64,000 bases of DNA from Rhodospirillales bacterium (GCA_017644185.1 JAEPMA010000008.1:1-64000), one strand, 5' to 3'; numbered from the stretch's first letter, positions 343 to 39,118 are shown. Program-made: numbers and translations. The notes: generated by a model not told the origin, from the letters alone.

Positions 343-843
343 TTGAAGAAACCATCAGGCGCACGGCGCTTCGCATCCGTTATGGCCGCCGCTACGGCAT
401 TGTTGTTCACCCTCTCGGCCTGCACCGAAACGGCGACGTTACAAGGGGGCGGCATGCCGTCCTCGCAAGCGGGCAGCCAGGGCACCGAGCCGAACGCCAG
501 CGTCTTCCCGGACATCCCGATCCCCGAAGGCGCCAACATGATCGTCGACAAGACGCTCGTCGTCGGCACCGACAAATGGTTCGGGCAGTTGGCATTGACG
601 GCGGGACAAAGCCCCGTCGCAATCTTCGATTTCTATCGAAACCGTCTACCCCAGTTCGGCTGGGACGAGATCACGTCGGTTAGAGCCCCGACCAGCGTGC
701 TGACCTATGACCGCGAAGACCGCATCATGCAGATGCAGATCACCTCGACGACGTTAAGAGGCTCGGAAATTCTCATCACCGTCTCGCCGCGCGGCACCCC
801 CAAGCCCCGATCCGGCACCGCCCCGGTGATCCGCAGCAACTAA
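343..843 (+). CDS. Small outer-membrane-type lipoprotein of unknown function
   Basis: The chosen start is TTG at 343. It follows a purine-rich GGGGGA and gives a classic lipoprotein signal peptide: KKPSGARR, a hydrophobic segment, then the lipobox LSAC with the lipidated cysteine at residue 27. An ATG 24 codons upstream would bury the signal peptide behind a polar extension. The mature part (about 140 residues) has a short Ser/Gly/Gln linker and a compact domain with PDIPIPEGANM near its start and alternating strands after it. The family is not one I can name. A weak promoter-like pair (TTGGCC at 234, TATATG at 258, spacing 18) lies upstream. It converges with clpB, 45 bp away. Confidence 0.7.
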   Translation: MKKPSGARRFASVMAAATALLFTLSACTETATLQGGGMPSSQAGSQGTEPNASVFPDIPIPEGANMIVDKTLVVGTDKWFGQLALTAGQSPVAIFDFYRNRLPQFGWDEITSVRAPTSVLTYDREDRIMQMQITSTTLRGSEILITVSPRGTPKPRSGTAPVIRSN

Positions 844-888
844 GCCACGCACCACCGGGTCCGGTTACCCGAAGTGACCTAGGCGGCG

Positions 889-3486
889 TTAAGCTGCCTG
901 GGCGCGTTCGCCGTTGATCAGCAGCCCGTCTTTCCCGGCAGACACCTTGATCTCGTCGCCGTCGTTGACGCGGCCTTCGAGGATCGCCTGCGCGAGCGGG
1001 TTTTCGAGGGCACGCTGGATCGTCCGCTTCAAGGGCCTTGCCCCATAGACCGGGTCGTAGCCCTGATCGGCAATCCAGGCCCGCGCCGCACCGTCCAGTT
1101 TGAGCGTGATGCCACGGTCCTTGACGCGGTCCCGCAGCCGGTCGAGCTGGATTTCGACAATCCCGTCCATGTGCTCGCGCGCAAGGCGGCGGAACAGGAT
1201 GGTTTCGTCCAGACGGTTTAAAAACTCCGGCCGGAACGACGCCCGCACCACTTCCATCACCAGCGGCCGGATCTCTTCCAGATCCTGGCCCTCTTCCTGC
1301 GAGGCGATGATATCGCTCCCCAGATTGGAGGTCATGATGATCAGCGTGTTGCGGAAGTCGACCGTGCGGCCCTGACCATCGGTCAGGCGCCCGTCGTCCA
1401 AAACCTGTAGAAGCACGTTGAAGACATCCGGATGCGCCTTTTCGACCTCGTCGAACAGGATCACCTGATAGGGACGCCGGCGCACAGCTTCTGTGAGCGA
1501 TCCGCCCTCGTCGTAACCGACATAACCCGGGGGCGCACCGATCAGGCGTGCGACGGCATGCTTCTCCATGAACTCCGACATGTCGATGCGGACCATCGCC
1601 TGCTCGTCATCGAACAGGAACGACGCCAGCGCCTTCGTGAGTTCCGTCTTACCGACACCGGTCGGGCCTAAGAACAGGAACGAGCCGATCGGCCGGTTCG
1701 GATCACCCAGGCCGGCCCGCGCACGGCGGACGGCGTTCGAGACCGCGACCAGCGCTTCGTCCTGGCCGATCACGCGGCCCCTCAGGGCATCTTCCATACG
1801 GAGAAGCTTCTCGCGCTCCCCCTCCAGCATCTTGTCGACAGGAATGCCGGTCCAGCGCGACACCACCTGGGCGACGTGCTCGGCGGTCACCGATTCGTCG
1901 ACGATGTGCGCCTCGCCCGCGGCCTCCGCTTTCTCCAAAGCTTCCTGAAGACGCGGGATTTCGCTATAGGTCAGTTGCCCGGCCTCTTCCAAACGCCCCT
2001 CGCGGATCGCCCGGTCAGCGGACATGCGCGCCGCATCGAGCTCTTCCTTGAGTTTCGTGGTGTCGGCGAGCGATGCCTTTTCGGCTTCCCACTGGCTTGT
2101 CAGGTCCTCCGATTCGGCTTCCAGATCCTCCAGCTCGATCTCGATCTTTTCGAGCCGGTCATGCGATGCCTTGTCGCTTTCTTTCTTCAAAGCTTCGCGT
2201 TCGATCTTGAGCTGAATGATACGGCGGTCGAGTTCGTCGATCTCTTCCGGCTTACTGTCGATCTGCATTTTCAGACGGCTTGCCGATTCGTCGACCAGGT
2301 CGATCGCTTTATCCGGGAGGAAGCGGTCGGTGATATAGCGCGCGCTCAGGGTCGCGGCCGCCACCAGCGAGGCATCGGTGATGCGCACGCCGTGGTGCAG
2401 CTCGTATTTCTCCTTAATACCGCGCAGGATCGAAATCGTATCCTCGACCGTCGGCTCGGAGACGAACACCGGCTGGAAGCGTCTGGCGAGCGCCGCGTCC
2501 TTTTCGACGTATTTTCTGTACTCGTCGAGCGTCGTCGCCCCCACGCAGTGCATCTCGCCCCGCGCTAGCGCCGGTTTAAGAAGGTTCGACGCATCCATCG
2601 AGCCCTCACCCGCGCCGGCGCCGACGAGCGTGTGCATCTCGTCGATGAACATGATGATCTGCCCGGCCGCCGCGGTCACTTCGTTGAGGACCGCTTTCAA
2701 TCTCTCCTCGAACTCGCCCCGGAACTTGGCGCCGGCAACAAGCGCGCCGAGATCGAGCACCATCAAGGTTTTCTGTTTCAGGTTTTCCGGCACGTCGCCG
2801 TCGACGATGCGCTGTGCCAATCCCTCGACGATGGCGGTCTTACCCACGCCGGGCTCGCCGATCAGCACCGGGTTGTTCTTTGTGCGCCGTGACAGGACTT
2901 GAATCGTGCGTCGGATTTCCTCATCACGCCCGATCACCGGGTCAAGCTTGCCTTCCATCGCCGCCTGGGTCAGGTCGCGCGCGTACTTGTTCAAGGCGTC
3001 GTAATTGTCCTCGGCGTTGGCGCTGTGTGCCGGGCGGCCCTTGCGGAACTCGTTGATGGCCTGATTAAGATTCTGGGGCGTGACCCCGGCATCGGCCAAT
3101 AATTTCGCGGCGACCGTATCCTTGGCCATGGCGATGGCGAGCAACACACGCTCGGCCGTCACGACGCTGTCGCCGGCTTTCTCAGCGAGTTGTTCGGCCT
3201 GGTCGAAAAGCCGCGCGGATTCGGGCGCCAGATAAAGCTGGTTGGCCCCACCGCCTTCGACTTTCGGAATCTTGTAGAATTCGCGGTTGACGCTTTCGAT
3301 GGCGCGGCCACGGTCGCCGCCCGCGGCGTCGATCAGGTTGGCGGCCAGGCCTTCCTTGTCCTCGAGAAGCACTTTCAGGACGTGAAGCGGCGTCAGCTGT
3401 TGGTGGTTGTTTCTAAGAGCCAGTGTCTGCGCGGACTGAATGAAGCCCCGCGCACGGTCGGTGAAGTTTTCAAAATCCATGTCCAT
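889..3486 (-). CDS. clpB: ClpB disaggregase
   Basis: ATP-dependent Hsp100 chaperone that threads aggregated proteins through a hexameric ring together with DnaK. The 865 residues match the family length. The order is an N-terminal Clp repeat domain (1-150), nucleotide-binding domain 1 with Walker A GEPGVGKT at 210-217, the long coiled-coil middle domain (about 410-525, rich in Glu/Lys/Leu), and nucleotide-binding domain 2 with GPTGVGKT near 610 and GYVGYDEGG after it. The first codon gives MDMDF; the internal ATG two codons later is equally possible. It stands alone on the minus strand with a candidate sigma-32 promoter about 80 bp upstream, as expected for a heat-shock gene. Confidence 0.98.
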
Positions 3487-3563
3487 TTCCTTTCAATGCG
3501 CCGGGTGTCAACGCCCCCAATTGGGCAGCGATAACCCCTCGCGGTGTATGGATATCTTACTCC

Positions 3564-3593
3564 AAATATGGCCTGCCGGGCGAGCGCTGCAAG
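3564..3593 (-). promoter_or_regulatory. Candidate sigma-32 (RpoH) promoter of clpB
   Basis: Read on the minus strand, CTTG (3593-3590) is followed after 18 bases by CCATATTT (3571-3564). This resembles the alphaproteobacterial heat-shock pattern of a CTTG box and a C-rich/TAT box with 17-18 bp spacing. It lies 78 bp before the clpB start. The assignment rests on the motif and on knowledge that clpB is normally heat-shock controlled. Confidence 0.45.
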
Positions 3594-3600
3594 TGCACGC

Positions 3601-3618
3601 GCGCGAATAAATTCGCGC
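3601..3618. promoter_or_regulatory. Perfect palindrome between clpB and the divergent gene
   Basis: GCGCGAAT-AA-ATTCGCGC is an exact inverted repeat with 8-bp arms and a 2-bp spacer. It is placed just upstream of the putative clpB -35 box in the 265-bp divergent intergenic region, so it could be an operator. No T-run follows on either strand, which argues against a terminator. Confidence 0.35.
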
Positions 3619-3690
3619 CCGCGTTGCACCCTTCGCGATGCTGCGGAACCGCTTGAAAACCCCGCAACAATTCGAAATATGCAGATTACA

Positions 3691-3718
3691 TTTACAGCTT
3701 AAAACCAGACCGTAATAT
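3691..3718 (+). promoter_or_regulatory. Sigma-70-like promoter of the 562-residue unknown gene
   Basis: TTTACA (3691-3696) and TAATAT (3713-3718) are separated by 16 bp and lie about 33 bp before the ATG at 3752, with AGGAGG at 3733-3738 in the predicted leader. The two boxes match the housekeeping consensus at 5/6 and 4/6 positions. Confidence 0.5.
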
Positions 3719-3751
3719 GGGTGCTATGACAGAGGAGGCGCTGGGCCAACA

Positions 3752-5440
3752 ATGGCGCAGGGCGAGTTCGACATCCAGGTTTTGAAAGAAGGCCGCTGGC
3801 TGACGGAGGCGATCCGCGCCAGCGAGATGGATGCCCGCGCGCTGGCCAAAACCTACTTGAAAAACCCCCAATGCGCGGGCGCGCGCGTCGTCGCCAACCA
3901 AGTCAAAGGCGACGGGACGGTTTCGGAGAGCGTCATCTTTCAGGAAACCCAAACGGTCAGCGGGGGGAAGCCTGTCCGCATCCAACCGCTCGACGCGGCA
4001 CCGATTTGGTGTAAATCGCCAAAGGACTTGTTCGGCCTCGAATGCCGAATGGTGCTGAACCGACTTTTTCGGGAGTATCTCGAAGAAGCCAAACTGACGC
4101 CAACCGAAGTCCTGCACAGTTACAAGCAGTTGCAACGCCTGTTCGACCGCGACACGCTCCGCTTCTCGGCGGTCAGCCACATCGCCACCCTGCAGGTCAA
4201 GGGCCGAGAGATATCGGCCAAGGACCGACAGGCGCAACTCAACAAGATCGTCGACCAGGTCACCCAACAAGCCCGCGAAGCGCAGTCGATCAAACTGCCC
4301 AAACTTAAGGGCAAGTTCTCGGACACGCTCGCCGCGATGCCGAAGGTCGATAGCCACCCGGTCGAATACCTGGCAATGGTGGTGCTGGCCCGGGACCTCA
4401 CCAACATCCCGAGCTGGACCGGCAAGATCGACCGCCTTTGCGACATGGCCCTTCACGAGCACGATCGCACCGCTTTGCTTCTGCTCGACACCGTGATCGC
4501 GGATCTTTTGGGGGCCAATGTCATTCAGGAACTGCTGGGATGGCAGCGCTCGCTCGGCAGCGCCATCATCAGCATGCTCGACCTCGCCGACGGCGTCTTC
4601 GACACCACCGAGAGCGATGCCAGGGGAACGGCGGACAGGCTTATAACGCTCTTCCAGGAAAACGCGCTTCCGGCAAGTCAGCGTGTGCTGGTCGACCGGG
4701 CGCTCCGGCAGCTCAAATCTTCCGCTCCCTTATACAAAGCCGACCCCTCCAAGGAGATGGAGGAATATCAGCGCGTGCTGGCCAGGCTGCTCGTGCCGGG
4801 TGGGATTCTATCGGGCGCACAAGCCGCGGAAGCACTGACGTTACGTGGTTCGCAATTCGTTGAAGCCGGCGGCAAATCGGGCCGGCGCGCGGCAATCAGT
4901 GCAACGTTCGAGGCGCTTCCCGATCCGGCCCGCGGTGCGATGTACCTGGCCGAGCTCTCGAAAACAGAACTCAACGAAGATCATATGGACGATATCGTCA
5001 CCCAACTCGACGTCGTATTCAGCGCACGGGTCATCAACCAGCTGTGTCAGCAGTCGATGTCGCACAAGGACAGGATGGTGACCGCCACCGGTGCCTATCA
5101 GGCAACCGCATCGTCGGCGCTGCCCGACGATATCAAAACGCAGGTGACGGAACATATCGACAGCGTGCTCGAACGCTACCTGATAGATGAGAACATCATC
5201 GACCGGCTCGACAGCCCAGGCACTCATATCCGCGACCGCGCCGTCAGGCTTGTTAAATTCTGCGGTGCCGGGGTCCTTCCCGAAGGAAAGGCACTCAAGC
5301 TCGCCCGCAAGCGCATCGTCAAATTGCTGAAGCAGCCTAATTTCGATGAACATTTCATCGAAGGGATCGGCGATCCGGCAAAGGCCGAGAAAGCGCTTCG
5401 CGATTTCCACAAGCTGCTTGTGCAGGGCGGACTCGCCTGA
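3752..5440 (+). CDS. Conserved-looking cytosolic protein of unknown function, 562 residues
   Basis: The ATG at 3752 follows AGGAGG by 13 bases. The product begins with a small domain (about 1-75, FDIQVLKEGRW) that reads like a compact alpha/beta module. The rest is almost wholly helical, rich in Leu, Ala, Arg and Lys, without signal peptide or membrane segments. No catalytic motif is evident and I do not recognise the family. A scaffold or regulatory role would be a guess. It is divergent from clpB and followed 43-64 bp later by a MOSC protein on the same strand. The 3' end has an unusual 12-bp tandem repeat giving three in-frame TGA codons. Confidence 0.85.
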   Translation: MAQGEFDIQVLKEGRWLTEAIRASEMDARALAKTYLKNPQCAGARVVANQVKGDGTVSESVIFQETQTVSGGKPVRIQPLDAAPIWCKSPKDLFGLECRMVLNRLFREYLEEAKLTPTEVLHSYKQLQRLFDRDTLRFSAVSHIATLQVKGREISAKDRQAQLNKIVDQVTQQAREAQSIKLPKLKGKFSDTLAAMPKVDSHPVEYLAMVVLARDLTNIPSWTGKIDRLCDMALHEHDRTALLLLDTVIADLLGANVIQELLGWQRSLGSAIISMLDLADGVFDTTESDARGTADRLITLFQENALPASQRVLVDRALRQLKSSAPLYKADPSKEMEEYQRVLARLLVPGGILSGAQAAEALTLRGSQFVEAGGKSGRRAAISATFEALPDPARGAMYLAELSKTELNEDHMDDIVTQLDVVFSARVINQLCQQSMSHKDRMVTATGAYQATASSALPDDIKTQVTEHIDSVLERYLIDENIIDRLDSPGTHIRDRAVRLVKFCGAGVLPEGKALKLARKRIVKLLKQPNFDEHFIEGIGDPAKAEKALRDFHKLLVQGGLA

Positions 5441-5464
5441 ATATCCGCCTGAATATCCGCCTGA
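5434..5464 (+). repeat. 12-bp tandem repeat spanning the stop codon
   Basis: CGCCTGAATATC occurs at 5434-5445 and 5446-5457, followed by a partial copy CGCCTGA at 5458-5464. Because the unit is a multiple of three, TGA recurs in the same frame at 5438, 5450 and 5462, so the upstream gene ends in three in-frame stops. Confidence 0.9.
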
Positions 5465-5504
5465 GGATTTGACAGGCAAATAGGTGCTCGCCAATCTGGC
5501 GGGC

Positions 5505-6266
5505 ATGACAATTACCCTACGCGATATCTGCCGTTATCCGGTCAAGGGTCTGAGCCCCGAGTATATGGAGACCGTTCTGCTGAGCGAAAGCGGCGCCTTG
5601 CCCTATGATCGGCAGTATGCACTGGCGCTCGGCTCGACGCCGGTCTCGGGTGCGATCTCGGACTGGATGCCCAAGTCCAGCTTTCTCTGCCTGATGCGGA
5701 ATGAAAAACTGGCGCAACTGGAAACGGCGTTCGACGATGCGACACAGACGCTAACCATCAAACGCGCCGGCAATCAGGTCGCCCGCGGCCAGCTCACCCA
5801 GAAAATCGGGCGCACGATGATCGAGGATTTTTTCGCCGCCTTCATGAAGGACGAGGCGCGCGGCCGACCCAAACTGGTCGAAGCCGCGTCGGGCCATGTC
5901 CTTTCGGATCACGATAGCCCGGTCATCTCGCTCATCAATTTGAACTCGGTGAAGGACCTGGAGCGTGTCGTCGGCAAAGAAGTCGACCCCAGACGATTCC
6001 GAGGCAACTTCATGATCGGCGGATTGGATGCATGGGCCGAGTTCGATCTTTGCGGCAAGCAGCTCGCCATCGGCGACGCCGTGCTCGAGGTCGTCATGCC
6101 GATCGACCGTTGCGCCGCGACCAACGTCAATCCGTCGACGGCGGAGCGCGACCTCAATCTTCCAAAGGACATGATGCGCGGTTACGGCCACATCGATTGC
6201 GGCGTGTTCGCGCGCGTCGCCAAAAGTGGCGACGTCAACGTCGGCGACGAACTTAAGGTTATCTGA
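5505..6266 (+). CDS. MOSC domain protein
   Basis: Molybdenum-cofactor sulfurase C-terminal (MOSC) family protein, probably handling a molybdopterin- or sulfur-linked substrate in the cytosol. The N-terminal MOSC beta-barrel starts ITLRDICRYPVKGLSPE. The C-terminal MOSC domain carries the conserved cysteine in DRCAAT, then NLPKDM and a final HIDCGVFARV...VGDEL. I chose the ATG at 5505, preceded by GGCGGG; a GTG at 5484 would add seven residues. The physiological substrate cannot be deduced. The stop lies only 6 bp from the stop of the converging DUF4167 gene. Confidence 0.88.
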   Translation: MTITLRDICRYPVKGLSPEYMETVLLSESGALPYDRQYALALGSTPVSGAISDWMPKSSFLCLMRNEKLAQLETAFDDATQTLTIKRAGNQVARGQLTQKIGRTMIEDFFAAFMKDEARGRPKLVEAASGHVLSDHDSPVISLINLNSVKDLERVVGKEVDPRRFRGNFMIGGLDAWAEFDLCGKQLAIGDAVLEVVMPIDRCAATNVNPSTAERDLNLPKDMMRGYGHIDCGVFARVAKSGDVNVGDELKVI

Positions 6267-6272
6267 ACGAGA

Positions 6273-6890
6273 TCAGTCGGCGGCCGACTGATCGGTGCTT
6301 TCCGCGGGCGCCTGTTCCGTTTTGCGTGAACGGCGCTGGCGCGGCTTGCGCGGTGCCTCTTCGGCTTTCTCCGCAGCTTGCTCGGCGTCCTTGGCCTCCG
6401 CGTCACTATCGGCGCCGCTGTCGTCCGTCGAAGGCTGCTCGCCCCCCTTCCGGCCACGCGACACCGTGCGCTGCAGACCGTTATCCGCTTCGCCCTTGCT
6501 GTCGTTCTTTTTGTCGTTCTTGTTTTCGTTTTTATTGTCGTTGCGGGCTTCGGACTCGTCGTTCTGGTCGTCGAAATCCTGGTCGTCGTCACGGTTATTG
6601 TTCTGATGGCGACCCTGGTTGTTATCCCGGTTCCGTCCGTCGTTGTCGGAGTTCAAAATCCGGTAGTAATGCTCCGCATGTTGCAGATATCCCTCCGCTA
6701 GAATGCGGTCTCCGGCGGAGTAGGCATCACGGGCGAGAGACTGGTACTTCTCCAGAACCTGCTGCGCCGTGCCCCGGACTTTCGCCTCGGGGCCGTTGCT
6801 CTCGAAAGAGCCACCTTTTTGATTGGGATACCGGTTGCGAGGATTACCGCGCGACCGTTGACGTCTGTTATTATTTTGTCCGTGTTTCAT
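6273..6890 (-). CDS. DUF4167 protein with low-complexity tail
   Basis: The N-terminal 85 residues form the DUF4167 domain typical of alphaproteobacteria. A basic Arg/Asn-rich start (NNNRRQRSRGNPRNR) precedes the helix pair VRGTAQQVLEKYQSLARDAY and GDRILAEGYLQHAEHYYRIL. The remaining 120 residues are disordered: first Asn/Asp/Arg-rich, then Asn/Lys/Glu-rich, then Ala/Glu, ending in a basic patch. The basic start suggests RNA or nucleic-acid contact, but the function is not established. It is the last gene of the long minus-strand run, 163 bp beyond prmC. That gap contains only a short GC hairpin and no gene. Confidence 0.88.
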   Translation of the reverse strand: MKHGQNNNRRQRSRGNPRNRYPNQKGGSFESNGPEAKVRGTAQQVLEKYQSLARDAYSAGDRILAEGYLQHAEHYYRILNSDNDGRNRDNNQGRHQNNNRDDDQDFDDQNDESEARNDNKNENKNDKKNDSKGEADNGLQRTVSRGRKGGEQPSTDDSGADSDAEAKDAEQAAEKAEEAPRKPRQRRSRKTEQAPAESTDQSAAD

Positions 6891-7053
6891 TGTCTCAGAA
6901 GCTTATCTGTACAAGGCAGTGTCCACGCCGCACCAAGCCTAGGCCCGGTTGAGAATGCTCACCCGAAAAAAGGAAACCTAGCGTGATACTGTGGGCTTTT
7001 GGACGCCGTTCGGCGTTCCCCCCTCAACCTCGAAAGGCTGAACCGTGAGGACG

Positions 7054-7929
7054 TTAGACCCTAGACCCCACAATTCCAACACCTTTTTTGTAAAAAGAAA
7101 CGGCGCGTTCGATGCCCGCCAGGTCCTTACGTCGCGGTCCGGGGATCAGTCCGCACACGGATGCAATTTTCAAAACCTCATCCGCCTGCCCAATTCCGAC
7201 TTCGAAAACCACCATCCCATCATCGCTCAATGCCGGTATCACCGCCGGGATGAGGCTACGATAGGCATCCAATCCATCGGCGCCGCCATCCAAAGCACCC
7301 ATCGGTTCGTGGGCGCGAACGTCGACATCCAGCATCTCGATATCCGCGCTTGGAATATACGGGGGGTTTGAAACGATCAGATCGAAGGTCCCGTCGATCC
7401 CATCCTCCCAAGTCCCTTCGACAATGCGGGCACGTTTTTCAAATCCAAGCGCACGTGCGTTGGCCGAAGCGATTCGGCACGCGTCTTTCGACATGTCCAA
7501 CCCGACCCCGTCTGCATCTTCGAACACGCTTAAAAGCGCCATCAGGATGCAGCCGCTGCCGGTGCCCAGGTCGAGGATGGTCTTAGGTGGTGAACGGTCC
7601 TTGAACGCTGACTCCACGAGTTCGACCAAGGTTTCGGTGTCGGGCCTCGGGATCAACGTCGCCGGTGTGACGTGGAAGTCCATGCTCCAGAATTCACGCC
7701 GGCCGGTAAGGTGCGCGAGCGGCGTCCCTTCGCAGCGCGCACTCAGGAGCGCGTAGTACGTTTTCAGATTTGCCGACGCGATGTCATCGTCGGCGCGCGC
7801 AAATACCTGCGCCGGCGTAATACCCAGAACATGCCCCAGCAGCAACCGCGCCTCGTTTCTGGGATTATCGATACCGGCAGCCGTCAGCGCCGCTTCGCCT
7901 TCCGTCAGCGCCGCCGAGATTTCGGTCAT
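7054..7929 (-). CDS. prmC: Release factor glutamine methyltransferase PrmC (HemK)
   Basis: Transfers a methyl group from S-adenosylmethionine to the glutamine of the GGQ motif in class I release factors. The helical N-terminal domain (1-80) recognises the factor, and the C-terminal Rossmann domain carries DLGTGSG at 120-126 and the catalytic NPPY at 188-191. The 291 residues match family size. Its start overlaps the end of prfA by 4 bp, so enzyme and substrate are translationally coupled. Confidence 0.97.
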
Positions 7930-8996
7930 TCCATGCTCGCAAGCCGGCGGGCGTTGTCTTCCGCCAACAGCGCCTCGACGACATCACCCATGTCGCCATC
8001 GATGAAGCTGTCGAGATTGTGGAGCGTCAATCCAATCCGATGATCGGTGACGCGGCGCTCGGGATAGTTATAGGTGCGGATGCGTTCGGACCTGTCGCCC
8101 GACCCAACCTGATCCTTGCGCTGTTGCGCGCGCTCCGTCGCCTGGCGTTCACGTTCGGCATCGAATATGCGCGCGCGAAGCACCTTCATCGCAGCCGCCT
8201 TGTTCTTATGCTGGGATTTCTCAGACTGCTGCGAGACCACGATACCCGTCGGGATATGCGTGATCCGCACGGCGCTGTCGGTCGTGTTGACGTGCTGCCC
8301 GCCCGCCCCCTGGGCACGGAAGGTGTCGATCCTGAGATCTTTTTCCTCGATATCCACATCCACCTCTTCCGCCTCCGGCATCACGGCGACAGTCGCGGCG
8401 GAGGTGTGAATGCGCCCGCCGGATTCGGTCACCGGGACGCGCTGGACGCGATGGACGCCGCTCTCGAACTTGAGATAGCGAAACACATCCTTCCCCGAAA
8501 TTTCCGCGATCGCTTCCTTAGCCCCACCGATCCCCGTGTCCTGGAAATGGATGACGTTGAACTTCCAACCCATGCGATCGGCGTAGCGGTTGTACATCCG
8601 AAACAAGTCCGCCGCGAACAACGCCGCTTCGTCACCGCCGGTCCCCGCGCGCACTTCAAGGATCGCGTTGCGGCTATCGGCCTCGTCCTTTGGCACCATC
8701 ATCAATTTGACGGCGTCCTCGAGTTCCGGAAGACGTTCCTTCAACTCGTTGCATTCTTCTTCCGCCAACGCGCGCATGTCCTGATCGCTCCCCGGGTCGT
8801 CGGCGATCTGTGCCGCGTCGATGAATTGCTGACGCGCTTCCTGGAACGCCTTGATCGCCGCAACGATCGGCGAGAGGTCGGCATACTCTTTCGAAAGCTC
8901 AGCGTATTCATCGCCCGAGACGCCGCTCGCCGACATCAGGTGCGTCAACTCGTCGAAGCGGGATGTCACGCGCTCGAGATGTTCTTCCATACTCAC
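7926..8996 (-). CDS. prfA: Peptide chain release factor 1
   Basis: Terminates translation at UAA and UAG. The anticodon-like P-x-T motif is PVT at 188-190 and the peptidyl-tRNA hydrolysis motif GGQ is at 232-234, the glutamine that PrmC methylates. The PVT rather than an SPF-type motif identifies RF1 and not RF2. The length of 356 residues is standard. It lies between hemA and prmC, overlapping each by 4 bp. Confidence 0.98.
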
Positions 8997-10264
8997 GTGT
9001 TGTTGTCTCCATCATCCGTAATCCCGAACAGGTCTCGAACCAGCCGTTCGATCTGTTCGATGTCCTCGCCCGCGTGTGCTTTGGCGCGCAATCGTTCACT
9101 CGGGCCGTGCAACAGCCGCTGCAGCAACAGATGCGTTGCCTTTTCGGCGTCATTCCCCGCTTCAAGAAGTACCGTTTCCCTTAGCGCAGCCGCGTGCTGG
9201 TGCAACGCGCCGAGTGCCGGCCCCGCCTGACGTCCTTCATGGCCCTTCAGAAATGCCTCGACCTCCGTCATCACGATCCGTTCCGCCGCTTCCGCCTCGA
9301 ACGACCGGCTCGCCTGACCTTCCATCGCCAACCTCTCCAGATCGGCGAGGTCATACAAAAAAGCATCGTCCAACCGGTCGACCGCCGATTCCACGTCGCG
9401 CGGCAGGCTGGCATCGACGATGAACTGCGGCAGGGAACGCCGCGCCTTCAACGCGAGCCGCACCATATCCGAACTCAGCACGATCCGCCGTCCGCCGACG
9501 GCGGTGATGACGATATCGGCGCTTGAAAGCGCACCCTGCAGATCCGCCTCGCCCACCGCGTGCGCATCCAGGCGCTCAACCATCTCCTGCGACGGCCTGC
9601 CGAAATCGCACACAGACAACATCCGCAGCCCGGCACGGCGGAGTTCGTCGGCGATCACCTCGCCCATATCCCCCGTCCCAAGCAACAACGCACGCGCCTC
9701 GTCCAATTGACCGTGCACTTCCCGTGCAATCCCGACCGCGACAGCCGCAATGGAAACCGGACGCTCGCCGACGGCGGTTTCGGTCCGGACGCGCTTGGCG
9801 GCGGTATAGGCCGACTGCATCAGCCGTTCCAGATCATCGGCCATCATGCCCCGGTCGCGCGCCAGCCTGTGGCATGCCTTGACCTGACCCAAAACCTGTG
9901 GCTCGCCGACGACGACGCTGTCCAGCGACGATGCGACACGGAACAGATGACGGACCGCGTCGGCACCCGTAAACCTGAAAAGTGCCTGGGCAAGTTCGTC
10001 AGCCGTTACATCGCCATGCCGAGCGAACACCTCGCTGATAACAGCCGCATCCCGATCGGCGTCCCGGCTTGCTGCAAACACCTCGACCCGATCACAGGTC
10101 GACAGGATCACCGCCTGGTCGACACCCCGCTCACGCAACTGATCGAGGAATTCCGGCACCGCGTCGTCCTCGACGAAGAGCCGGTCGCGCAGGGACAGAC
10201 TGCCGGTGCGATGATTAACGCCGACGACAAGGGGAGTGCGGGACGTGCGAGTACCCCCGGCCAC
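8993..10264 (-). CDS. hemA: Glutamyl-tRNA reductase
   Basis: First committed enzyme of C5 tetrapyrrole synthesis, reducing glutamyl-tRNA(Glu) to glutamate-1-semialdehyde with NADPH. GVNHRT is at 15-20 and the active-site cysteine sits in [10 protein letters not shown] (Cys57). It is followed by the NADPH-binding domain and a C-terminal helical dimerisation region. The presence of hemA is notable because many alphaproteobacteria use ALA synthase instead. The start is GTG, 5 bp after the hisS stop, with no strong ribosome site of its own, which suggests coupling to hisS. Confidence 0.96.
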
Positions 10265-35925: not shown

Positions 35926-36603
35926 ATGGCGTCGGTGGCTCGCGTCAATCGAGGGTTTATGGAGCGTATGGGGCGTCTGTCGCGCCTCAAGCTGCTGATT
36001 CCGCTGCGCCGCAGCCCCCATTCGCCCGAGTATTCGGCGCGCGGCGTTGCCGTCGGCATGTTCTGGGCGATGACACCACTGGTCGGCATCCAGATGTATC
36101 TCTGCTTCATGACGTGGTTGTTGTTCAAACCACTGAAGAACGCCAACTTCAGTCTCGTCATCTCATTCGCTTGGACGTGGGTCACCAACGTCTTCACGAT
36201 GTTGCCGATTTACTATCTGTTTTATGCCACCGGCCAGATCATGCGTGGCGACTGGCACAACATCACGGGATACGACACGTTTTTGACATCCTGGCATGCG
36301 GCGTTCGACGCTGGCGCCGGATTTTGGCAGGCGATGCTTGACCTGATGGGGCTGCTTGCAAAGGAACTCGGCCTGTCGATGGGGATCGGCTGCCTGCCTT
36401 ACGCGATCCTCAGCGCCTGGTTCAGTTATAAATTCTCGTTGAAATACGTTCGCCGCCGCCGCCGCAAGAAACTGGAAAAGCGGGTCAAAGAGCATGCCGC
36501 CAAGTCGGGAAAGCCGGCAAGCGAAGCAAAGGAAGACAAGCGGGCGAGTATGAACGCCCCGGCATCCCCCGGTATTCAGTCCCCGGACCGGCCAAGCGCC
36601 TGA
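35926..36603 (+). CDS. DUF2062 membrane protein
   Basis: 225 residues with RSPHSPEYSARGVAVGMFWAMTPLVGIQMYLC, typical of DUF2062, and two or three membrane segments (about 35-105 and 150-175). A very basic patch RRRRRKKLEKRVKE follows, then a polar disordered tail. The ATG at 35926 is preceded by GGGAGA; GTG at 35923 is in frame. Function unknown. The stop is 27 bp inside the end of the converging ProC-like gene. Confidence 0.87.
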   Translation: MASVARVNRGFMERMGRLSRLKLLIPLRRSPHSPEYSARGVAVGMFWAMTPLVGIQMYLCFMTWLLFKPLKNANFSLVISFAWTWVTNVFTMLPIYYLFYATGQIMRGDWHNITGYDTFLTSWHAAFDAGAGFWQAMLDLMGLLAKELGLSMGIGCLPYAILSAWFSYKFSLKYVRRRRRKKLEKRVKEHAAKSGKPASEAKEDKRASMNAPASPGIQSPDRPSA

Positions 36604-37352
36604 AGGCGGGCGGTCGCGGCCGCCATTGCATCGCGCCAGGGTTTGAATGCATCCCCGTCCTGTAACGTTTTGATCCCAGCCTCGGTAATGCCGCCAGGCG
36701 TCGCCAGTTGCCCAAGGGTCTCTCGCGGGTCTTTTTCAGGTGTTTCCGCGATCATCGCACCTGCGGCGCGCATCATGTCCGCTGTCACCTTACGGGCGGC
36801 GGCTTTCTCGACCCCGCTCTCAATCAGGATATCGGCAGTCTCACCCGTCAGGGCGAACAACCAGCCGAACCATCCGCCCAATGCACTCGCCGCCGAGAAC
36901 GCGTCCTCGTCTTTTATCGGGGTCACGCGTCCCAAGGGCGACAAAGCTTCCTTCGCCTTTTCGATATCCGGATAGAGCGGGATCGCGCTTTCGCCGTAGC
37001 GGCTCGCCAGGACCGGCATCGCGCGTGCTGCATCCGCAGGTGCCGCCGCCCCCCTGAGGGCGCCCGCCGTGATCCCCGCCGCCGCTGAAATCAAGACCTG
37101 CCCGTCACGCCAGGGTAATAGCCGGACGGTCGAAATGACATCGCCCGGCCGGGTCGCGATAATCACGACATCCGAATTGCGCACCACATCCGCATTGTCG
37201 TCGGCGACACGGATCCCATGCGTCGCACGCAACAAAGAAGCCTTTTCCCGCCCTCTTGGCGAGACGATCAGATCCCGGGCCATCCCCGCCCGGGCATACC
37301 CTTCCGCGAGGGCAAATCCCAGATGACCGATCCCGATAATGCCGACCTTCAC
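36576..37352 (-). CDS. Pyrroline-5-carboxylate reductase-like enzyme
   Basis: 258 residues with the Rossmann start VGIIGIGHLGFALAEGYARAG, VVIIATRPGDV, ITAGAL and PVLASRYGESAIPLYP. The C-terminal helical domain ends TPGGITEAGIKTLQDGDAFKPWRDAM, the ProC-family signature. P5CR makes proline, but the GHLG instead of GNMG loop and the operon context suggest a different imine or amino-acid substrate. Its ATG overlaps the stop of the upstream B12 protein by 4 bp, so the two are translated together. Confidence 0.82.
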   Translation of the reverse strand: MKVGIIGIGHLGFALAEGYARAGMARDLIVSPRGREKASLLRATHGIRVADDNADVVRNSDVVIIATRPGDVISTVRLLPWRDGQVLISAAAGITAGALRGAAAPADAARAMPVLASRYGESAIPLYPDIEKAKEALSPLGRVTPIKDEDAFSAASALGGWFGWLFALTGETADILIESGVEKAAARKVTADMMRAAGAMIAETPEKDPRETLGQLATPGGITEAGIKTLQDGDAFKPWRDAMAAATARLQALGRSGD

Positions 37353-39118
37353 GATTTTCCTCCATCTTGATTCGCGATGATTTCCAGCATGTCCTCAATC
37401 CGCGCACACGGGATTGCCCCGGTCTCGCTCAAACTGTTTGCGACGTCCACCGGCAGGCCCGTGTTGGTCCCATCAGGGACGGCGTTGAGACGGCCGCCGA
37501 TAAACACTTGGGGGTGATAGCCGCCGGGCCTCATCTCCCCCGCGAGGTCACGGACGAAATCGGCGGCGACCCCGTTATACGTGCTGATCGCAATTACATC
37601 CGCGGATGCCGCTTCCGCCGTCTTCAGAAGATCGTCGGCGTCGACGCCGATCCCACCGTCCACGACATCGACATCCAGTTTCGACAAGACCTGCTCGACA
37701 AGGCGTTTGCCGTATTCATGAACATCCGTCGTCGCGATGCAGATTTTCGGCCGTCGCCGCTTCAAACCATCCAACAATGATGGGTCGAGGCCGGTGACGA
37801 TGCTGTCGGCTTGGTCCGCGATCTCGTTGACGACGCTGGAGACCACCACCGGCGCCCGCCCGTAGTAACCGCCACTGTCCATTTCGCCGGGACCGAAAGC
37901 GCGCTCCAACGCCGGCGCGCCGATGCGGCGAATGGCGAGCAGCATCTCGTAGGCGTCATCGGTCGCATAACCGAGTTCACCCAGACCATTCATCACGTTG
38001 TCGAAGAATTTACGTCCGCCCGCCGCGATCTCGTCGGCCAGCGCTCGAACGCTCTCCGGGGGATTGTCAGACAAGAGTTCTGAGGTTCGCTCGGCGAGGG
38101 TGGCAGCAAAAATCTGCGCATCCGCGATTTCGTCGACGCTTGGGATGCGCCTGGCCTCCGTCACCGGGATCGGGGTGAGTGCATGCCCGCTCGGCGCCCA
38201 GCGGAGCGCCGCCAGGTCGGCGCCGAGATACCCCGCCAGAACTGCATAGTTGGCTGCATCATCTTCCGCAAAGCGTGTCGTGTTCCCGTAAATCATCGTG
38301 CCCGGGCCGGGGGAGGCCTCGGCCAATGCCAAGTGAAACGCCTGACGCTCCCTCAACCCCGAAAACGTATGTCCATAACAGTGCCCGATATGGCCGCCGA
38401 TCAGATGCTCGACGATGTAGCGCTCAATCAATGCCGCCCCGAGCGTGCACGCCAGATCCGAAAAACGGGCCGCAAATCCGTCATCAAGATTGGAATGGAT
38501 GATGATATCGACGGGCTGCGCCGCACACATCGCCATCGCCTCGACCGTGGCCCGGGCGATCAGGGCGTCGTCATCCCAATCCGGGAGGCGGAAGGTGAAA
38601 TACTGACCAAGATTGCCGATGCTCGTCGCGCCGGCCTTCAGCGCGGCTTCGGTGTTCTCGACCGCCGCCGGCATACCAATCACGAAATCCCCGAAGTGCG
38701 CGGCGGCGTCCGTGGCTTCCGCCACCAAACGGAAATCATCGTCGCTGCGCAAAACCAGTCCGGTGCCCCGGTTGCGGCCTTCGCGCTGACCGGGGGGATA
38801 CCCCATGCTCCAGTCGAGACAGATCCCGTATCTGTCGATGCGGCCGCCGACGTCCGCCACACGCCTGGAGATTTCAGCCATGTTGTCGGCCGTCACCTCA
38901 GGGTCGCGCCAGCCCGCCTGAGCGTGGAACATGGGTTTGAGTTCCCCTGCCATCGCGCGCTTGAACGCACTCTCCGACGCGACCTCACGTTCGCGTTGAA
39001 AGCGAGCTTGCGGCATGACGATGTCGGCAGCGCGGGCATGGCCGCGCCGGATCAGGTCTACACCTGAAATTAAATCGATTTCCGGTAGCACCCGGTCGCG
39101 GGAAAACTCGGCTGACAT
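37349..39118 (-). CDS. Glutamate-mutase-like protein with fused B12-binding domain
   Basis: 589 residues. The N-terminal ~455 residues read as a glutamate-mutase epsilon-like barrel: FKRAMAGELKPMFHAQ, GICLDWSMGYPPGQREGRNRG, NVMNGLGELGYATDD and ALERAFGPGEMDSGGYYGRAPV, the last matching the FGPSxYNAGKMMPV-type region of MutE. The C-terminal 130 residues are a cobalamin-binding Rossmann domain with DVHEYG (the DxHxxG cobalt-ligand motif, His467), ISTYNG and IGGRLN. E and S parts are normally separate genes. The ATG at 39118 is preceded by GAGG; a TTG six codons upstream is also open. The substrate is unknown. radC ends 26 bp upstream. Confidence 0.75.
   Translation of the reverse strand: MSAEFSRDRVLPEIDLISGVDLIRRGHARAADIVMPQARFQREREVASESAFKRAMAGELKPMFHAQAGWRDPEVTADNMAEISRRVADVGGRIDRYGICLDWSMGYPPGQREGRNRGTGLVLRSDDDFRLVAEATDAAAHFGDFVIGMPAAVENTEAALKAGATSIGNLGQYFTFRLPDWDDDALIARATVEAMAMCAAQPVDIIIHSNLDDGFAARFSDLACTLGAALIERYIVEHLIGGHIGHCYGHTFSGLRERQAFHLALAEASPGPGTMIYGNTTRFAEDDAANYAVLAGYLGADLAALRWAPSGHALTPIPVTEARRIPSVDEIADAQIFAATLAERTSELLSDNPPESVRALADEIAAGGRKFFDNVMNGLGELGYATDDAYEMLLAIRRIGAPALERAFGPGEMDSGGYYGRAPVVVSSVVNEIADQADSIVTGLDPSLLDGLKRRRPKICIATTDVHEYGKRLVEQVLSKLDVDVVDGGIGVDADDLLKTAEAASADVIAISTYNGVAADFVRDLAGEMRPGGYHPQVFIGGRLNAVPDGTNTGLPVDVANSLSETGAIPCARIEDMLEIIANQDGGKS

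Follow-up and report, generated by a model that had tools for sequence, protein, structure and literature searches.

The window, a 64,000-nt stretch of DNA from a Rhodospirillales bacterium, contains two overlapping genes that encode a glutamate-mutase-like B12 protein and a ProC-like reductase. Sequence and structural analyses suggest that the pair represents a new family of adenosylcobalamin (AdoCbl) radical mutases with the glutamate mutase fold, acting in one pathway with an imino-acid reductase, as a sporadic accessory module for cyclic or N-methylated amino acids (rough probability, 0.6). The family is conserved and uncharacterised, and many bacteria encode it together with an imino-acid reductase. 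AdoCbl mutases that rearrange carbon skeletons come in few known kinds; the barrel of this family has gone unrecognised, and its members are annotated only as "cobalamin-dependent protein". With this family, many marine and soil bacteria would have an additional demand for B12 and an additional step that converts an amino acid. A full-text literature search of limited coverage, which is no proof of novelty, gave no description of a single-chain mutase of this type or of the pair.

The gene pair

Both genes lie on the minus strand. The features of the pair are as follows.

37349..39118, minus strand: CDS of the single-chain mutase-like protein, starting with ATG at 39118, 589 aa and a stop codon (relatives; dN/dS)
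37886..39076, minus strand: barrel domain with the glutamate-mutase epsilon fold, residues ~15-411 (AlphaFold model; Z 30.3 to 1cb7_B and 6h9e_B; without a sequence family)
37352..37756, minus strand: B12-binding domain, residues ~455-589 (PF02310 at 463-544; fold match to GlmS 1i9c, Z 15.0)
37706..37726, minus strand: DVHEYGK motif, residues 465-471 (D465, H467, G470, K471); H467 is the predicted lower cobalt ligand
37571..37585, minus strand: STYNG motif, residues 512-516 (Y514 and G516 are the same in all 54 relatives, S512 and N515 in nearly all)
37484..37498, minus strand: GGRLN motif, residues 541-545 (G541, G542, L544 and N545 invariant in 54 relatives)
37349..37352, minus strand: GTGA, the 4 bp shared by the mutase stop and the reductase start (-4 spacing also in ~19 distinct loci)
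36576..37352, minus strand: CDS of the ProC-like imino-acid reductase, starting with GTG, 258 aa and a stop codon (PF03807, PF14748; TIGR00112 E 1.5e-33, below cut-off)
37317..37328, minus strand: GHLG loop of the dinucleotide-binding fold (read in the sequence and in partner reductases)
36663..36707, minus strand: P5C-reductase C-terminal signature region ATPGGITEAGIKTLQ (G220, T223 and G226 nearly invariant in partner reductases)

The earlier note had described one 589-residue protein with a barrel and a C-terminal B12 domain, which was confirmed. The 4-bp overlap that it had reported was also found; the overlap reads GTGA, so the reductase starts with GTG and not with ATG as proposed. The nearest relative has the same gene order around the pair, with 78% (mutase) and 83% (reductase) protein identity. 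The dN/dS values against this relative are ~0.09 and ~0.07, respectively, which indicates strong purifying selection on both genes and not chance. A radC-like gene lies upstream on the same strand, and the surroundings are housekeeping genes, as named by reading of their sequences. The whole window gave no Rfam match, and so no cobalamin riboswitch at the gathering threshold.

Domains and fold of the mutase-like protein

The Pfam search matched PF02310 to residues 463-544 (E 2e-10). Together with the motifs, this match bears out the C-terminal B12 domain with DVHEYG, STYNG and IGGRLN (residues 540-545) claimed in the earlier note. The DxHxxG, SxxxG-like and GG motifs of an AdoCbl-mutase-type domain are conserved in the alignment of 54 relatives, in which D465, H467 and K471 are invariant. 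In the AlphaFold model, this domain was matched by VIA-align to GlmS (1i9c_A, Z 15.0) and to the B12 domain of methylmalonyl-CoA mutase (Z 15.3). By sequence, it scores highest with the methionine synthase MetH, which counts against the mutase reading. The helical cap PF02607 of the MetH/MtbC corrinoid proteins gave no match at E<=1 in the Pfam search of the protein.

The AlphaFold model was built from the 54-sequence alignment (mean pLDDT 92.4, pTM 0.92). The best fold match by VIA-align is the glutamate mutase epsilon subunit GlmE (Z 30.3, rmsd 3.3 A, 364-368 residues). The next are lysine 5,6-aminomutase KamD (Z 27.7) and ornithine 4,5-aminomutase OraE (Z 22.8), followed by methylmalonyl-CoA mutases (Z ~20) and generic barrels such as dihydropteroate synthase (~15). 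B12 mutases also top the Foldseek list for the model. The sequence comparisons gave a different picture. The barrel region had no match to PF06368 and no other credible barrel match at E<=1 in Pfam, and none credible in NCBIfam. The same PF06368 search found the true MutE of the window's genome, as a positive control (E 5e-138). The hhalign comparison with this MutE and its relatives, a thin profile of 5 sequences, gave a probability of 0.4%, and the profile of the 54 mutase relatives found no PDB barrel. Thus, the epsilon-like barrel of the earlier note stands by fold and not by sequence. Family profiles place the B12 part and no sequence family holds the barrel part; the N-terminal region does resemble B12 mutases by its fold. 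The model supports a single-chain, glutamate-mutase-like B12 enzyme. One protein with a weak PF06368 match (L095) was rejected; from its sequence it looks like a subunit of an ordinary methylmalonyl-CoA mutase, and the profile shows no relation to it.

The protein was compared with the known B12 mutases. It shares the barrel fold, the B12 fold and the B12 motifs with glutamate mutase (GlmE/MutE and GlmS/MutS). However, it is one chain and not separate epsilon and sigma subunits, its barrel is without detectable sequence similarity, and its subfamily is coupled to a ProC-like reductase and mostly lacks MutL. The methylmalonyl-CoA mutase family has the same single-chain order of barrel and B12 domain, but these proteins have at least 700 aa, the window protein has no match to their Pfam family, and the fold match is weaker than that to GlmE. 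KamD and OraE share the barrel fold, whereas the window mutase has no identified PLP-binding part, no detectable sequence relation to them, and a coupled reductase.

The protein might be a fused glutamate mutase that interconverts glutamate and 3-methylaspartate, with the reductase serving elsewhere in glutamate or proline metabolism. This is unlikely, although of the alternatives it fares best. Glutamate mutase is the best fold match, and three loci (L037, L053 and L076) have, close to the mutase, an aspartate-dehydrogenase-like protein that could accept 3-methylaspartate. However, PF06368 is missing from a search that detects the true MutE, and the genome already has a full MutS-MutL-MutE operon. 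R71 and R112 are invariant and follow barrel strands 1 and 2; their equivalence to the GlmE substrate arginines was judged by eye. On comparison by eye, the barrel-mouth residues seem to misalign with the three GlmE arginines. Glutamate is an unlikely substrate because of the separate operon and these apparently differing residues; the substrate is probably another compound.

The two-subunit operon in the window's genome has the order IclR-MutS-MutL-MutE (L119 3797-7159; G000:C31 ~180.3-183.7 kb). Its MutE seems, by eye, to be without one substrate arginine and the glutamate of GlmE; given these apparent losses, it may have another substrate too. Another genome that has the single-chain mutase also encodes a GlmE-type MutE (L097; G083:C1 ~637.7-639.0 kb) with 348 bits to the solved GlmE. 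A stretch with MutS-like B12 motifs precedes this MutE, as read by eye.

Distribution and relation to MutL

The scan for mutase relatives gave 56 loci, and more were found on Rhizobiales plasmids. They are annotated as "cobalamin-dependent protein" or "hypothetical protein", or are unannotated, and the one-chain architecture is common to nearly all of them. The distribution is sporadic: the mutase was found in 15/387 alphaproteobacterial genomes of an even draw and in 4/397 genomes of the phylum draw. Some tree records titled Heimdallarchaeota, Hodarchaeota, Mesoflavibacter and Acidobacteriota group among proteobacterial rows. These are probably misbinned MAGs, and no spread beyond Pseudomonadota is claimed from them.

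Two genomes carry a sister subfamily with 30% identity to the window mutase. In both, the mutase gene adjoins MutL (PF13941, E 1e-118 and 2e-135), an ATPase found with glutamate mutase, which it reactivates, and with related enzymes. This adjacency supports mutase activity with AdoCbl radical chemistry for the superfamily. MutL was found in only 3/387 genomes: the window's own, in the MutS-MutL-MutE operon, and the two with the sister subfamily. The window's subfamily therefore works without MutL in most genomes. MutL was rejected as its general partner, and this counts against the radical mutase reading.

The ProC-like reductase and its coupling to the mutase

The reductase consists of the Rossmann domain PF03807 and the P5CR dimerisation domain PF14748 with the imino-acid signature. 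It is similar to ProC along its whole length, and the C-terminal signature is conserved. However, its TIGR00112 score (116.5 bits) is below the equivalog cut-off of 196.75, its loop reads GHLG, and a separate ProC with 29% identity to it is encoded elsewhere in the genome. In the dinucleotide-binding region, the partner reductases have an invariant Arg (SPR), which suggests NADPH as the cofactor, going by the sequence. The GHLG loop is present as described in the earlier note, which took it as a hint of a different substrate. The loop is a family feature, yet not invariant (GHF, GYL and GFL occur among the partner reductases), and so it says little on its own about the substrate.

The coupling was counted over 67 loci, with six that end too early excluded, leaving 61 informative loci. 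A ProC-like gene lies directly downstream of the mutase gene in 35 of these; 31 were flagged by script and four more (L017, L024, L028 and L059) were added, whose matched stretches overlap too far for the limit set in the script. A single ORF intervenes in 1/61, and a ProC-like gene is nearby in 5/61. No ProC-like gene was found nearby in 20/61, which counts against a shared pathway. Adjacent pairs occur all over the 71-row tree, and adjacency changes 15 times on it compared with 23.9 in shuffles (0/500 shuffles as low). Since the pairs are spread throughout the tree, the pairing looks old, then repeatedly lost or rearranged. The coupling claimed in the earlier note is genuine, with separation or absence in a sizeable minority of the loci.

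A reductase of this special type (profile E<=1e-35) was found in 11/15 mutase genomes and in 15/372 others (Fisher p 1e-11, a test that is partly circular because the profile was trained on mutase partners). Where the two genes are not adjacent, the genome often encodes this reductase elsewhere, ~7 kb from the mutase gene in G664 and in other places in G131, G813, G814 and G815. Four genomes (G150, G168, G277 and G816) have a low-scoring ProC only, which also counts against the proposed pathway. Among the loci without ProC, the three named above have the aspartate-dehydrogenase-like gene and L022 has an Ldh_2 gene; the other downstream genes look unrelated. Another imine reductase as a general replacement of ProC was rejected, being seen only in part.

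The ProC-like partner might instead aid the B12 enzyme, for example by reducing or reactivating inactive cobalamin in place of MutL. The tight translational overlap of the two genes and the rarity of MutL in the ProC-coupled subfamily would fit such a role, and no ProC-like gene was identified beside the MutL-coupled sister mutase in the two loci read. However, the imino-acid-binding signature is conserved in the reductase, and the special reductase is missing from some mutase genomes. Moreover, some reductase relatives are without any mutase and have a class IV aminotransferase and OYE-type flavoenzymes as neighbours. A helper function is therefore rather improbable, about as doubtful as a fused glutamate mutase or slightly more so.

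These relatives without an adjacent mutase were seen in three loci (L106, L107 and L108). Their OYE-type and aminotransferase neighbours indicate that the reductase family serves other pathways too. In a 1.3 Mb genome (L103 7535-9253), a ProC-like gene adjoins a CsiD-type oxygenase gene and genes that cluster with LIV-type ABC transporter genes.

Proposed reaction and substrate class

The domains, the fold, the conservation and the coupling of the genes are observed; the radical chemistry, the order of steps and the substrate class are inferred. In the proposed radical mutase pathway, which keeps the earlier note's rearrangement followed by imine reduction, the C-terminal domain would hold B12 over the barrel mouth. 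Homolysis of the Co-C bond would generate a 5'-deoxyadenosyl radical, and inside the barrel a small substrate resembling an amino acid would be rearranged. The co-translated ProC-like protein would act in the same pathway as an NAD(P)H-dependent reductase whose substrate is an imino acid, most likely a cyclic imine derived from the mutase product. The pair would form an accessory module, most likely catabolic, for cyclic or N-methylated (proline-betaine-like) amino acids.

Besides ProC, the only widely recurring neighbour is a PhyH-type 2-oxoglutarate oxygenase, found within ~2 kb in 12 loci of several lineages. In L045, a Rieske oxygenase gene overlaps the mutase stop; its closest structures are 3n0q, 3vca and 4qup (E 4e-101 to 9e-106), and 3vca is the stachydrine demethylase Stc2. 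Other neighbours include proline racemase, a hydroxyproline-type cluster on a Phyllobacterium plasmid, and DUF3483/ETF proteins with a TMADH/OYE-type (N-demethylase-type) flavoenzyme. An M20 peptidase with DUF1028, an amidase, an M19 peptidase with an Ldh_2 reductase, and ABC transporters with GntR or IclR regulators were also found. These neighbours fit a pathway that degrades cyclic or N-methylated amino acids, but they do not fix one substrate. A single substrate read off the neighbourhoods was rejected, as none beyond ProC and PhyH recurs often enough. The neighbourhoods are very diverse and that of the window is purely housekeeping, which counts against the proposed catabolic module.

The N-methyl amino-acid degradation genes near some mutases, and the MetH score of the B12 domain, might suggest a corrinoid methyltransferase or methyl-carrier fusion, such as a demethylase of N-methylated amino acids. 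However, the barrel matches glutamate mutase at Z 30 and pterin-type methyltransferase-like barrels at only ~15, the protein has no MetH/MtbC-type cap domain by Pfam, and MutL adjoins the sister subfamily. The protein does not look like the corrinoid methyltransferase that the earlier note had considered; only generic B12-domain similarity points that way, and such a function is very unlikely. Equally improbable is an aminomutase of the lysine 5,6- or ornithine 4,5-type that also needs pyridoxal phosphate, for which the alpha subunit of lysine 5,6-aminomutase is the second-best fold and a diamino-acid product could cyclise to an imine, but neither a second subunit nor a PLP-binding segment was identified.

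Tandem arrays and broken genes

Five consecutive mutase genes, one of which has an in-frame stop, are followed by two ProC-like genes in one genome (G319; L077, oriented 644-9616). In another genome (L029 1382-8400), a PhyH gene and at least four mutase genes occur in the same order up to the contig end. The B12 motifs are kept in all array copies (G470 is Ala in one), and so are most core barrel residues. The putative substrate residues vary among the copies: 71 (R,R,R,N,Q), 103 (W,W,R,E,N), 208 (H,H,G,T,H) and 246 (H,H,T,T,A). The simplest reading of these substitutions is that the copies may be paralogues with different substrates; alternatively, they might form hetero-oligomers. A broader reading is more tentative than the main one: a multi-specificity AdoCbl mutase family, with arrays of five and two reductases in some bacteria, might catabolise cyclic or N-methylated amino acids by a rearrangement not yet described, and do so without MutL. 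Because the reductase partner is conserved and the pockets vary within the tandem arrays, the question of the substrate can be tested directly.

In two other loci, the mutase gene is broken in the linker between the barrel and the B12 domain, by an in-frame stop in one (L036 5989-7764) and by a frame change in the other (L062 5992-7778). These breaks could be natural two-subunit splits, pseudogenes or assembly errors.
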